This document shows positions 26,107 through 31,069 of a stretch of 64,000 nucleotides of DNA, one piece after another. The stretch's first letter is position 1. Every line of letters starts with the position of its first letter. The DNA lies in assembly GCF_024623725.1 (NCBI RefSeq), contig NZ_JANKHG010000018.1, positions 1-64,000 on the forward strand, given 5' to 3'. Origin of the DNA: Limnobacter parvus (GTDB lineage: Bacteria > Pseudomonadota > Gammaproteobacteria > Burkholderiales > Burkholderiaceae_B). The translations under genes were made by a program, and so were the position numbers. The notes beneath the pieces are model-generated. The model did not search any database, was not told where the DNA came from, and worked only from the letters and a program-made list of their open reading frames with translations.

Positions 26107-26810
26107 AGCACACCGTAGCGGGCGCGGTATTCCTTTACCTTTTCATACCAGCCAGCCAAGCGAACATTGGCTGCTTGCCGTGTTAATAGATAGCGCAACA
26201 AGTCTTGCAGGTTGGCAATTGCTATTACGGGAATGCCATAAAGCTGTTCTACTTCCTGAACAGCCGAGTGTTCTGTGTCTTGCCCGTCGCGCACACCCTT
26301 TTCCATGCGGTCCAATGCGATTAACACCGCCGCCGGTTCGGCACCGTTTGCACGGATAATTTCCACCGATTCGCGAACCGATGTGCCTGCTGAAATAACA
26401 TCATCAACAATCACAACACGACCTTCAAGCGGTGCCCCAACCAGTGAGCCACCCTCGCCATGGTCTTTTACTTCCTTGCGGTTAAATGCATAGGGCACAT
26501 CGCGGCCGCGCCGGGCCATTTCCATGGTTGCACCCGCCACCAATGGAATACCCTTGTACGCCGGGCCAAACAACATGTCGAACTCAATTCCACGCTCAGC
26601 GGTTTGCTCCAACAAAGTTTGTGCGTAAAATTCACTAAGCTTTTGAAGTGATGAACCCGAGTTGAACAAACCCGCATTGAAAAAATAAGGCGACATTCTG
26701 CCTGCCTTGGTTTTGAATTCACCGAAGCGCAACACCTGCTTTTCGACAGCGAACTGCAAAAACTGATCGGAAAGCACCTGCAAATTTTGATTTGAATCGA
26801 CCACGATCAA
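26103..26810 (-). CDS. pyrE: Orotate phosphoribosyltransferase
   Basis: Up to 235 residues. QVLRFGEFKTKAGRMSPYFFNAGLFN and the PRPP loop VVIVDDVISAGTSVRE identify PyrE, which makes OMP in pyrimidine synthesis. There is no early ATG. The frame opens with TTG at 26810, then GTG at 26804 and GTG at 26777; the last would give a length nearer to the 213 residues of E. coli PyrE, so the start is uncertain. Divergent from xth by about 24 bases. Confidence 0.95.
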   Translation of the reverse strand: MIVVDSNQNLQVLSDQFLQFAVEKQVLRFGEFKTKAGRMSPYFFNAGLFNSGSSLQKLSEFYAQTLLEQTAERGIEFDMLFGPAYKGIPLVAGATMEMARRGRDVPYAFNRKEVKDHGEGGSLVGAPLEGRVVIVDDVISAGTSVRESVEIIRANGAEPAAVLIALDRMEKGVRDGQDTEHSAVQEVEQLYGIPVIAIANLQDLLRYLLTRQAANVRLAGWYEKVKEYRARYGVL

Positions 26811-26833
26811 TCCCTAAAAACAGACTTCAAACA

Positions 26834-27616
26834 ATGACCCGCATTATCTCAGCAAATCTGAATGGAATTCGTTCTGCACACACAAAAGGATTTTTCGACT
26901 GGATGAACCAAAGCCAGGCCGATGTGGTGTGTGTTCAGGAAATTAAAGCCCACCTTGCCGACCTGGGGCCCCAACACCTGCAACCTGGTGAATACACTGG
27001 CTACTTTCAGGCAGCGGAGAAAAAGGGCTACAGCGGGGTGGGACTTTACAGCAAAATAAAACCACTTAACGTGACTTATGGCCTAAATAATGCTGAATTC
27101 GACGCAGAAGGACGCATGGTGACTGCGGAATTCGAGAACCTGATTGTGTCGTCCATTTACTTTCCATCGGGCAGCAGCTCAGAAGAACGCCAGGAAGCCA
27201 AATTCCGGTTTTTAGATCATTTTGCTGAAGTTTTCGATGAATTTGAGAGCAAGAAGAAGCCTGTTGTGTTGTGTGGCGACTGGAATATTGCCCACAAGGA
27301 AATTGACCTGAAGAACTGGAAAGGCAACTTGAAGAACAGCGGTTTTTTGCCTGAAGAACGCGCGTGGATTGGAAACGCCATGGAAAAACGCGGTTGGGTT
27401 GATGCTTACCGCGTGCTTTACCCCGAAGAAACGGAAGGCTGCTACACCTGGTGGAGCAACCGAGGCCAGGCCTATGCCAAGAACGTGGGGTGGCGGATTG
27501 ACTACCAGATGGTCAGCCCTGCTTTGCGGGATTCGATTCGCGAAGTGAGTGTGTACAAGGCGCAAAAGTTTTCGGACCATGCGCCGCTGATTGCAGATTA
27601 CGACCATCCGCTATGA
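26834..27616 (+). CDS. xth: Exodeoxyribonuclease III (AP endonuclease)
   Basis: 260 residues from the ATG at 26834. Metal and catalytic motifs are SANLNGIRSA, VVCVQEIKA, CGDWNIAHKEID, WRIDYQMVS and SDHAPL, in the order of the EEP nuclease superfamily. It removes AP sites and 3' blocks. The frame is open 14 codons upstream, but homologues start at MTRIISANLNG. Confidence 0.96.
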   Translation: MTRIISANLNGIRSAHTKGFFDWMNQSQADVVCVQEIKAHLADLGPQHLQPGEYTGYFQAAEKKGYSGVGLYSKIKPLNVTYGLNNAEFDAEGRMVTAEFENLIVSSIYFPSGSSSEERQEAKFRFLDHFAEVFDEFESKKKPVVLCGDWNIAHKEIDLKNWKGNLKNSGFLPEERAWIGNAMEKRGWVDAYRVLYPEETEGCYTWWSNRGQAYAKNVGWRIDYQMVSPALRDSIREVSVYKAQKFSDHAPLIADYDHPL

Positions 27617-27707
27617 CCGGTCTGTTTCTGGGCTCCAAAACCGCGAGACCGCTGATTCAACAATCAAATCCGGACCCCGAATCGGCGCGAGTCACAATCT
27701 TTCGCCC

Positions 27708-27895
27708 GAAAACCTGTTGACCCCTTTTTGAAGTTCACACTGACTCACCGAGGTCGGCAAAACTGATGGCCGATCCTCGGTGTCGACCTTTGGTCGAACG
27801 TGGCGTGTGAATTCAAACGGGCAGGTTTTCTTGAAGGCGAAGCGATTGGAACAACGCTGCCGATTGGGCGTCAAACCCAGCGCTTAATTGCGTGG
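27708..27895 (+). repeat. Structured repeat unit, left copy
   Basis: Begins GAAAACC and runs to the centre of symmetry. Hairpin A at 27746-27782 has stem CACCGAGG/CCTCGGTG continued by TCGGC/GCCGA. Hairpin B at 27783-27797 is TCGACC-TTT-GGTCGA. The 13-mer GGTTTTCTTGAAG is at 27824-27836. In transcript sense it lies 92 bases after the xth stop, so it would be in the xth 3' UTR. Confidence 0.8.
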
Positions 27896-28083
27896 CTGTA
27901 GAGCGTCGCTGGCGCAGATTCATGCCAACTCGGCAATGGGCTTGCCTGTTCCGAACTTCAAGAAAACCGCCCCATATGAATCCATTCGCAGCGTTCGGCT
28001 GAAAGCCGGCACCGAGACTCGGCCATCTTTTTTGCCGAGCTCGGTGAGCAAGAATTGATTCAATAAGGGATCAAGCGGTTTTC
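27896..28083 (-). repeat. Structured repeat unit, right (inverted) copy
   Basis: Reading the minus strand from 28083 gives GAAAACC, then hairpin A (28010-28046; CACCGAG/CTCGGTG then CTCGGC/GCCGAG), then hairpin B (CGGCT-TTC-AGCCG), then the same 13-mer GGTTTTCTTGAAG (28-base offset region, plus strand 27956-27968). Alignment to the left copy needs at most about one gap over the outer 130 bases. In transcript sense it begins 37 bases after the gatB stop. Confidence 0.8.
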
Positions 28084-28119
28084 AGTGAGGAAGCAGGCAA
28101 CGCTGACGAGTTGGCAAAA

Positions 28120-29559
28120 TCACGCGCTCAACTTCGCTTTCAAAATCTCGTTCACCTGCGCCGGGTTGGCCTTCCCACGCGCCGCGCGCATGATCTGCCC
28201 CACCAGGAAGTTAAACGAGGCTTCCTTGCCAGCTTTGTATTCCTCCACCGGGCCTGGGTGCGCTGCAAGCACATCGTCAATCATTTTCTCGACCGCGCCA
28301 GAATCGGAAATTTGCTCCAGCCCCTCGCCTTTGATGCACGCATCAACATCACTGTACTTGCCATCCCACAAAGCGGCAAAAACCACTTTTGCAGTTTTGT
28401 TGTTCAAGGTACCATCCACCACGCGCTTCACCAGTGCCGCCATTAGTTCAGGGACAATCGGCGACTCGGCCGGTGATTTATCATCGCGGTTAAGGCTGGC
28501 CGAGAACTCACCCAGCAACCAGTTGGCCAGGGGCTTGGCTTTGTCATTGCCAGCCACCTCCAATGCGCTTTCGAAATAATTGGTCATTGCGCGGCTGGCA
28601 GTCAAAGTAACAGCGTCGTATTCGCTCAGGCCCAATTCGGCGGTGTAACGCGCCTGCTTCTGGCCCGGCAGTTCAGGCATTTCAGCGCGCACTTGCTCAA
28701 CCCACTCGGCAGAAATAACAAGCGGTGGCAGATCGGGGTCGGGGAAATAACGGTAGTCTTCCGAGTCTTCCTTGCTGCGCATGGAACGGGTTTCGTTGCG
28801 ATCCGGGTCGTAAAGCCGTGTTTCCTGCTTGATGACACCACCATCCTCAATGATCTCGATTTGGCGCTGCGCTTCATACAAAATGGCGGCCTGCAAAAAC
28901 TTGAAGCTGTTCAGGTTCTTGATTTCGCAACGCGTGCCCAGCTTGGTTTCACCTTTGGGGCGCACCGACACGTTGGCATCGCAACGGAAACTGCCTTCCT
29001 GCATATTGCCGTCGCAAATGCCCAGCCAAGTAACCAAAGTGTGTAGAGTTTTGGCATAAGCCACCGCTTCCTCGGCCGAGCGCATGTCGGGCTCGGTCAC
29101 AATTTCAAGCAAGGGCGTGCCCGCGCGGTTCAGGTCGATGCCCGATTGACCCGCGAAGTCTTCATGCAGGCTTTTGCCCGCATCTTCTTCGAGGTGAGCG
29201 CGCACCAGTCGCACGGTTTTCATTTGATCGCCCAGCAAGAAGCTGACTGTGCCGCCCTGCACCACCGGAATTTCAAACTGGCTGATTTGGTAGCCTTTGG
29301 GCAAGTCGGGGTAGAAATAATTTTTGCGGGCGAATACAGAATGTTCGGCCACCTTGGCCCCCACCGCCAATCCGAACTGAATGGCGCGCTGTACTGCAGC
29401 TTTGTTCATCACTGGCAGTACGCCCGGCAATGCCAAATCCACGGCGCAGGCTTGCGCGTTGGGTTCAGCGCCGAAGGCGGTACTTGCGCCAGAGAAAATT
29501 TTTGACTCTGTTGTTAACTGGGTGTGGGTTTCAAGACCCACCACAATTTCCCATTGCAT
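28120..29559 (-). CDS. gatB: Asp/Glu-tRNA amidotransferase subunit B
   Basis: 479 residues from the ATG at 29559; the frame is open to 29661. It starts [15 protein letters not shown], contains [20 protein letters not shown] and GEFSASLNR, and ends with the tail domain [20 protein letters not shown]. GatB phosphorylates the misacylated tRNA in the GatCAB complex. Last gene of gatC-gatA-gatB, 13 bases after gatA. Confidence 0.98.
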
Positions 29560-29572
29560 GGTGCGATCCTTG

Positions 29573-31069
29573 TTAAAACGGTGTGCGAAGGTGCCAATCG
29601 GTGGCGGTTTGGTAGTAATCTGCCAGCGCCAGCAATTCCCCTTCCTTGAAATAATTGCCAATCAGCTGCATGCCAACCGGGCGATTCTTGTCGCCAAAAC
29701 CCACCGGCACACTCATGCCGGGCAAACCAGCCAGGCTGGTACTTAGCGTATAAATATCGGCCAGGTACATTTGAACCGGGTCGGCAGATTTTTCGCCCAA
29801 ATTCCACGCAACCGTAGGGCTAACCGGCCCGGCGATGAAGTCGCACTGTTGAAAAGCGGCTTGAAAGTCTTGTGCAATCAGGCGACGAATTTTCTGGGCC
29901 TGCAAATAGTACGCATCGTAATAACCGTGCGAGAGCACATAGGCACCCACCATGATGCGGCGCTGCACTTCCAAACCGAATCCTTCACTGCGCGAATTCT
30001 CGTACATGGATTTCAAATCGGTGTAATTGGCAGCGCGGTGACCATAGCGCACGCCATCAAAGCGCGACAGGTTGGAACTGGCCTCGGCGGGTGCAATCAC
30101 GTAATAAGCTGGAATCGACAATTCCGTGCGGGGCAGGCTGATACTCACCAAGGTTGCGCCCATGGCTTCCAATTGCTTCAGCGCATCATCAATTGGCGCA
30201 CGCACATCGGCGGCCAAACCCTCACCAAAAAATTCTGAGGGCAAACCAATGCGAACACCAGCGAGTGGATTTGCTGCATCTCCGCCGCGCAAGGGCTTTC
30301 CGAAACCAGCGGTGAAATCTTCATTGACGCCTTGGGAAGCAGCCGGACGCTGCACACTGGTGCTGTCTTTCACATCAAAGCCCACCATGGCGTTCAACAC
30401 CAGTGCGCAATCGCGTGCGCTGTGGGCCATCGGACCGGCTTGGTCCAAGCTGCTGGCGTAGGCAATCATGCCGTAACGGCTGCAACTGCCATAAGTTGGC
30501 TTAATGCCCGTAATGCCACACAGCGAAGCGGGCTGGCGAATTGAGCCGCCTGTGTCGGTACCCGTGGTAAAAGGCACCACACCGGCAGCTACGGCAACAG
30601 CCGAGCCGCCAGAGGAACCACCGGGTACGGCCAGTGTGTCCCAAGGATTCAAGCAAGGGCCATAGGCACTTTTTTCATTCGAGGAACCCATGGCGAATTC
30701 ATCACAATTCACCTTGCCAATGTTCACGGTACCTGCTGCATTCAGGCGGGCCACCACTTCGGCATCAAACGGGCTTTGGTAGCCTGCCAGCATTTTCGAG
30801 CCCGCAGTGCTGGTCCAGCCTTGGGTGACAAAAATGTCTTTGTGCGCGGTAGGAATGCCCAGCAAGGCACCGGTTTCGCCTGCAGCCAGGCGCGCATCGG
30901 CGGCCTTGGCTTGTTCAAGCGTCAGGTCATCGCGAATGTCGACGAATGCGTTCAATTTGGATTGTTGCCCCGCTTCACGCAACGCTTGCTGCGCCAACTC
31001 GGTGGCGCTGGCCTTTTTCTCGTCCAGCAAAGTGCGCAGCTGGGAAATGCTTTGAAGTTTGGAAGACAT
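29573..31069 (-). CDS. gatA: Asp/Glu-tRNA amidotransferase subunit A
   Basis: 498 residues from the ATG at 31069 (GTG at 31081 also open). The amidase catalytic triad is Lys77 (AHKDIF), Ser152 (PGGSSGGS) and Ser176 ([10 protein letters not shown]). It releases ammonia from glutamine for transfer to Glu-tRNA(Gln) or Asp-tRNA(Asn). The gap to gatC is 88 bases. Confidence 0.98.

Follow-up and report, generated by a model that had tools for sequence, protein, structure and literature searches.

Paired, forked palindromic repeats between the convergent xth-like and gatB-like genes of Limnobacter parvus are one copy of a family found only in Limnobacter among the genomes searched

The palindromic repeats known from bacterial intergenic regions tend to be short, and many of them are tied to RAYTs. 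The Y and Z motifs of the REPs of Escherichia coli face each other in BIMEs, and both BIMEs and REPINs are located near the 3' ends of genes. Bidirectional intrinsic terminators, situated between convergent genes, consist of one short hairpin whose pairing is symmetric on both strands, and the MITEs ERIC, NEMIS and Correia are short, palindromic, non-autonomous and multicopy elements. REPs are described as being 20-40 bp long (PMC3733652), and BIMEs and REPINs as dispersed, extragenic, inverted doublets able to fold in ssDNA or mRNA, with REP doublets reported to behave as a unit and proposed to spread as an inverted doublet (PMC3116915). Finally, the abstract of a work on stem-loop sequence families gives 92 of them from 40 bacterial genomes, mostly intergenic and with a common predicted fold (PMC2267715).

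The feature analyzed here belongs to a family of paired, forked palindromic repeats which, within the genomes searched, is specific to Limnobacter, and represents a single copy of it. It occupies the spacer between two convergent genes, which we take to be xth and gatB in line with a preliminary description of this DNA, in a window (the whole stretch analyzed) comprising positions 1 to 64,000 of the L. parvus contig NZ_JANKHG010000018.1. Direct reading of the sequence places two inverted forked hairpins, units A and B, in the spacer, with the following layout:

26792..27616, plus strand: xth-like gene, its stop codon 58 nt ahead of unit A, with orthologues in 15 of 16 genus genomes
27675..27869, plus strand: unit A, 195 nt, composed of an outer stem, a lower stem and two apical hairpins (from the sequence, an alignment of 21 full copies and the fold)
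27708..27836, plus strand: core of unit A, matched by covariance model R1 with 147 bits
27746..27782, plus strand: hairpin A of unit A (from the sequence; helix 4 of the pairing analysis)
27783..27797, plus strand: hairpin B of unit A (from the sequence; helix 5 of the pairing analysis)
27870..27923, no strand: variable spacer of 54 nt between units A and B (from the alignment of copies)
27924..28115, minus strand: unit B, 192 nt, in inverted orientation and with the other type of stem (from the sequence and the alignment)
27956..28083, minus strand: core of unit B, matched by covariance model R1 with 142.8 bits
27996..28008, minus strand: hairpin B of unit B (from the sequence; helix 5 of the pairing analysis)
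28010..28046, minus strand: hairpin A of unit B (from the sequence; helix 4 of the pairing analysis)
28120..29661, minus strand: gatB-like gene, its stop codon 4 nt from unit B; relatives were found

The closest named record of the gatB-like protein belongs to Limnobacter sp. CACIAM 66H1 (97%). An inverted-repeat search at the spacer returned arms of 93 nt with 78% complementarity, and the units extend somewhat beyond the arms of the preliminary description, reaching 195 nt (A) and 192 nt (B) when the outer stems are included. In the predicted fold of the reference A unit (from locus L005), the outer arms pair as well, and almost all of the unit forms one stem with two apical hairpins, at about -112 kcal/mol. 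The layout proposed in the preliminary description was borne out in its details: the centre of symmetry at 27895.5 agrees with arms at 27708-27836 (plus strand) and 27956-28083 (minus strand), GAAAACC opens both arms, each arm carries hairpin A followed by hairpin B, and the 13-mer GGTTTTCTTGAAG is present at 27824-27836 and, inverted, at 27956-27968. The swapped G-C pair that it reported in hairpin A is also real, being one among many two-sided changes in the family.

The Limnobacter units resemble BIMEs and REPINs in being dispersed, extragenic, inverted doublets (a facing arrangement is seen in 41 of 42 close doublets, and the sites lie between called genes) and in having unlike motifs that face each other near gene 3' ends. 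With dispersed, intergenic, unlike inverted units placed mostly at the 3' ends of genes, a BIME-like repeat is the favoured one among the options initially listed. They differ in length, with 192-195 nt and a forked tip compared to the 20-40 bp of a REP, and in diversity, with stems of at least four types (A, B, C and a partner, P) and several tip types, assigned by short patterns and by eye (A unit L013 of L. parvus, missed by the pattern, was set by eye), and with hairpins and tips replaced in place. A further difference is that 15 of the 16 genus genomes lack a Y1 transposase: a whole-genome transposase search limited to PF01797 found it in G008, and it was absent from the genome of L. parvus and the other unit-rich genomes, which disfavours a RAYT/Y1 transposase as the mobilizer.

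Bidirectional intrinsic terminators share with the pair the position between convergent genes and the two-strand symmetry, but the Limnobacter pair consists of two separate 195-nt forks, and its terminator signal does not rise above chance. The scan of positions 27300-28400, where 1.8 sites would be expected by chance, yielded one weak minus-strand site at 27683-27667, which shares 9 nt with the outer end of unit A. With no GC stem plus T-run on both strands, the earlier suggestion of a bidirectional terminator is not supported in this intrinsic sense. Like the family, the MITEs mentioned above are palindromic, non-autonomous and multicopy, but the Limnobacter pair is made of two unlike, complex ends; no clean insertion with a target duplication emerged from the xth-gatB spacers compared, and no parent transposase from the proteins between paired units or the PF01797 search of the own genome. 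The stem-loop families are likewise intergenic repeats with a shared fold; a fixed pairing of unlike units is absent from the abstract of that work, which served for the comparison (PMC2267715).

A DNA search with the 391-bp structure recovered 10 further full-length copies in the own genome of L. parvus (G000), with 70-82% identity, and many half copies. The covariance model of the arm (R1), built from 71 core units, gave 59 matches in the same genome at E values up to 0.01, two of which overlap on opposite strands and the weakest of which scores 32 bits; homologous units are thus plainly present outside the xth-gatB spacer. Among the genus relatives, the model matched 30 times in G007, 32 in G012, 87 in G009 and 88 in G008. 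The DNA search matched 12 of 60 relatives, the own genome counted, all of them Limnobacter, and left four of the 16 genus genomes without a match (G002 and G010, both incomplete, G014 and G015). When the model was run with stricter filters against 300 order-level genomes, two matched, namely the own genome and G004, both Limnobacter, the latter with just two diverged units. Distant-mode searches of the phage and plasmid collections and a near-mode search of a 4-kb region against plasmids gave no matches, and a phage or plasmid origin was rejected, as neither collection contained a match. Rfam returned nothing at the gathering score and nothing up to an E value of 5, which dismisses identity with an Rfam family, and no description of the family was found among the open-licence papers listed for Limnobacter, for BIMEs located at convergent genes and for intergenic repeats that evolve in concert. 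Within this scope, the initial impression that no described family fits still holds.

The two diverged units of G004 (L196 and L197), a genus member otherwise without the family, possibly represent an early stage of the family; the outer stem of one of them contains direct repeats. A unit-like structure present at the same site in L. parvus (L203, C7:219102-219228) and in G009 (L265) has hairpin A between an A-run and a T-run, in the manner of a bidirectional terminator. Its A-rich loop is similar too, and the structure may point to the origin of the hairpin.

Throughout the family, a unit of about 195 nt can fold into a long stem topped by two apical hairpins, and this pairing is kept across copies. 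For 71 units and a structure of 43 pairs, the share of paired cells is 93.6%, versus 83.9 +/- 0.3 in shuffled controls; none of 500 shuffles reached any of five measures, and slid controls brought pairing down to 33-55%; a base misplaced near columns 76-77 in some rows of alignment A1 lowers the pairing counts there. Given the full-length copies, the 59 model matches and pairing above all shuffles, the inverted structured pair is not a product of chance. Two-sided compensatory changes occur in 28 of the 43 pairs (296 cells), and two unpaired features are nearly constant, namely an AAAA stretch within the hairpin A loop and a TTGAA motif next to the lower stem. The compensatory changes noticed in the preliminary description are real and extend to the family, but its step from them to structural selection calls for caution: sites exchange hairpins and entire tips, and template switching, a described process, can repair stems (PMC8794818). 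Such repair may share the credit for the kept stems.

If selection acted on one transcribed strand, G-U pairs would be expected to outnumber A-C mismatches. In the 114 well-aligned units of a set of 168 (54 less well aligned units left out), A-C mismatches number 86 and G-U pairs 39, and 61 and 39, respectively, without two columns dominated by one change; in all 168 units, among which two G009 units are present twice, the figures are 214 and 133. The stems of the own-genome tRNAs (26 distinct tRNAs from 30 loci) gave 23 G-U and 2 A-C, in a position-based control, since program-drawn brackets probably cannot show A-C by construction. The greater tolerance of G-U than of A-C that marks cis-acting RNAs is thus absent from the units (39 versus 61). 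As the mismatches lack a G-U bias, selection on one transcribed strand is unlikely, and the earlier proposal of a structured RNA, in its usual one-strand sense, does not agree with stems in which, unlike those of the own-genome tRNAs, A-C is no rarer than G-U. These counts fit folded DNA or a barrier that both strands require.

Pair-type, sense, shared-site and similarity counts are based on 55 of the 59 own-genome matches, the remaining four being fragments or collapsed copies (C1:373750, C7:11444 and two overlapping matches at C7:533169-533315). Among the close doublets of L. parvus and G009, 39 of the 41 that face each other combine one A with one B, i.e. 14 of 14 close pairs in the former and 25 of 27 in the latter, where one B-B pair and one diverged A-A pair depart from the rule. 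The close doublets of G009 comprise 27 plus-minus, no minus-plus and one minus-minus arrangement, the last (L255) formed by two C units with a short gene between them. Units of type C that appeared as singles mostly proved not to be solo units: they face a forked unit, P, which model R1 misses. Across from the C unit, a P motif is present in 10 of 12 C loci of L. parvus and 10 of 20 of G009, and a P-like fork was seen by eye in all 11 folded C loci. The units therefore occur in inverted pairs whose members differ in type, either A with B or C with P, facing each other. Three loci (L004, L006 and L010) were handled mirrored, with the A/B order flipped, which, given the symmetric geometry, leaves the convergence, sense and unlike-pair counts unaffected.

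Gene contexts, taken from a simple codon-score gene caller, place 28 of the 41 own-genome loci between convergent and 12 between tandem genes, with none between divergent ones (L136 holds two sites), and the 59 sites of G009 are 39 convergent, 17 tandem, two divergent and one open. The 56 gene junctions of the window, used as background, comprise 10 convergent and 9 divergent ones, from which the G009 sites differ (Fisher, 2e-7); when only window junctions with spacers of at least 30 nt are considered (4 of 23 convergent), the difference persists (8e-5). In terms of orientation, 112 of 142 units lie in sense behind a gene, with the core starting at a median of 88 nt past the stop codon, 26 are not in sense behind the nearest gene and four are far from any gene. 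A simple scan found a T-run terminator between gene and unit in four of the 112 sense units.

The xth-gatB site was compared in 15 genus genomes and one named record. The full pair is present in L. parvus, G008 and G009; A occurs without B in G011 and, with another tip, in G012; in G003, A stands at a contig end; a remnant of B alone is found in G005, G006, G007 and G013, as well as in the named record (L049), whose spacer is the same as that of G005; G004, G014 and G015 have no element, and the site is unreadable in G001 and G010. Because four genus genomes retain the remnant only, the copy at this site is dispensable. The element-free spacers measure 22, 22 and 103 bp and belong to distant genomes, in which the insertion point is not fixable.

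An occupied counterpart in G009 exists for 37 of the 41 own-genome loci, with flanks about 74-86% identical, the criterion being at least 1000 aligned nt to a G009 locus fetched for holding a unit, and a few loci relying mostly on one flank. The 47 orthologous unit pairs from these two genomes include 37 with the same stem label and 10 that differ or are unlabelled, and orthologous units are no more alike than random cross-genome unit pairs. Tip similarity is higher within each of the two genomes than between orthologues for B (0.74 and 0.69 versus 0.64) and for C (0.74 and 0.81 versus 0.71), and shows almost no excess for A (0.75 and 0.73 versus 0.74). By eye, 9 of the 47 pairs have quite different tip types in the two genomes (e.g. 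L200/L270 and L141/L293). G008 and G009 are closer to each other; of the 30 cores compared between them, 23 reach an identity of 85% or more, and four (L341, L347, L349 and L355) keep the lower stem but change hairpin A or the whole tip. The 30 cores average 0.90 identity versus 87% in the flanks, a value biased upward, since they are the best 30 of 88 units; within the set, L344 and L354 were assigned to one G009 unit and L343 was compared with a unit of another type.

As occupied loci are shared and tips differ between orthologues, the positions of the units are inherited, while the tips undergo replacement on the spot. The sharing of sites between genomes disfavours frequent jumping in recent times as the main process. 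For the distant pair L. parvus/G009, repeated insertion at preferred places may account for the shared sites, an explanation against which the core identity in G008/G009 speaks. Pairs also decay through deletion. In L146 and L147 (C7:533169 and C1:373750 of L. parvus), a deletion across the centre has left one hairpin made of half A and half B.

Some pairs enclose genes. On C8 of L. parvus, two cores lie 1.2 kb apart (C8:129819-131311, in locus L129, C8:128500-133000), and the two genes between these A and B units encode an NlpC/P60 protein of 186 aa and a lipoprotein-like protein of 171 aa. The NlpC/P60 cargo is present at the same site in G009 (L291) and G001 (L302), and elsewhere this site carries a bare pair (G008 and G011), B alone (G003) or A alone (G006 and G012). 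The two cargo proteins diverge more between species than the neighbouring genes do; that they form an effector with its immunity protein is a guess. In G009, a Peptidase_C92-like protein of 183 aa and an unknown protein of 204 aa are located between B and A units (L283:1575-2737), the L. parvus counterpart being a bare pair (L004). The proteins enclosed by paired units are thus NlpC/P60, C92 and two without a Pfam match, and no recognized transposase lies inside any unit pair among the loci read. A dedicated enzyme that recognizes folded forks and swaps tips between dispersed copies, with the forks serving also as a cargo-docking cassette, seems to us very unlikely; if it were so, unlike paired forks would take up cargo such as the NlpC/P60 and lipoprotein-like pair.

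The explanation that we consider fairly probable is a repeat of the BIME/REPIN kind that represents a new, RAYT-independent type, whose members stay similar by being copied from one another and whose position makes it a 3' boundary. It is REPIN-like in its doublet style, is regarded as RAYT-independent because Y1 is absent from 15 of 16 genus genomes, and shows no terminator signal above chance at the xth-gatB pair. Early in the history of the genus, the pair would have spread as a non-autonomous element, in the manner of a REPIN but without RAYT; the PF01797 search in 15 of the 16 genus genomes and the proteins between paired units revealed no mobilizer. Dispersed copies would then have been kept alike by copying, with gene conversion or with template switching taking place at the folded tips, and the pair would act in a setting in which both strands matter, whether as a folded DNA structure or as a barrier that is read from either side. 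Judging from sequence and position, its role is probably that of a 3' boundary between neighbouring transcription units. Mobilization of the family by a RAYT would agree with the same genomic style, i.e. inverted, unlike, extragenic units at 3' ends, but is extremely improbable, with PF01797 confined to G008 and units several times longer than 20-40 bp REPs.

An element of the 3'-UTR acting as RNA, in which the unit read in sense ends or stabilizes the upstream mRNA as a two-ended terminator or exonuclease block, would account for the 112 of 142 units in sense behind a stop codon, the enrichment between convergent genes, the very stable predicted folds and the stems kept through two-sided changes. 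It is nevertheless unlikely in view of the mismatch spectrum, where G-U is not favoured over A-C (39 versus 61, or 39 versus 86 with the two columns, compared to 23 versus 2 in tRNA), of a terminator signal at the pair no higher than chance and of the T-run terminators already standing between gene and unit at 4 of 112 sites. A barrier needed in both reading directions would, however, explain the symmetry, so that this rival is weakened rather than dismissed. We find it similarly doubtful that A and B derive from the two ends of a formerly autonomous transposon or MITE, now passive and functionless, whose pairing is kept only by palindrome repair. The unlike inverted ends, the variable middle, the two cases with genes between the ends, the deleted or half copies and the described ability of template switching to repair stems (PMC8794818) are what such degeneration would leave, but 37 of 41 loci are occupied in a species with flanks about 74-86% identical, the G008/G009 cores (0.90, from the upward-biased best 30 of 88) are set against flanks of 87%, and palindrome repair alone would not keep the constant unpaired AAAA and TTGAA.

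On the preferred reading of a RAYT-independent, BIME/REPIN-like family, what is new is the occurrence of large, forked, unlike pairs at shared gene ends in most members of the genus, without RAYT and with tips replaced in place. The family provides a natural test of the origin of compensatory changes, whether from selection on the fold or from copying and template switching, and a clean system for the role of such elements between convergent genes.
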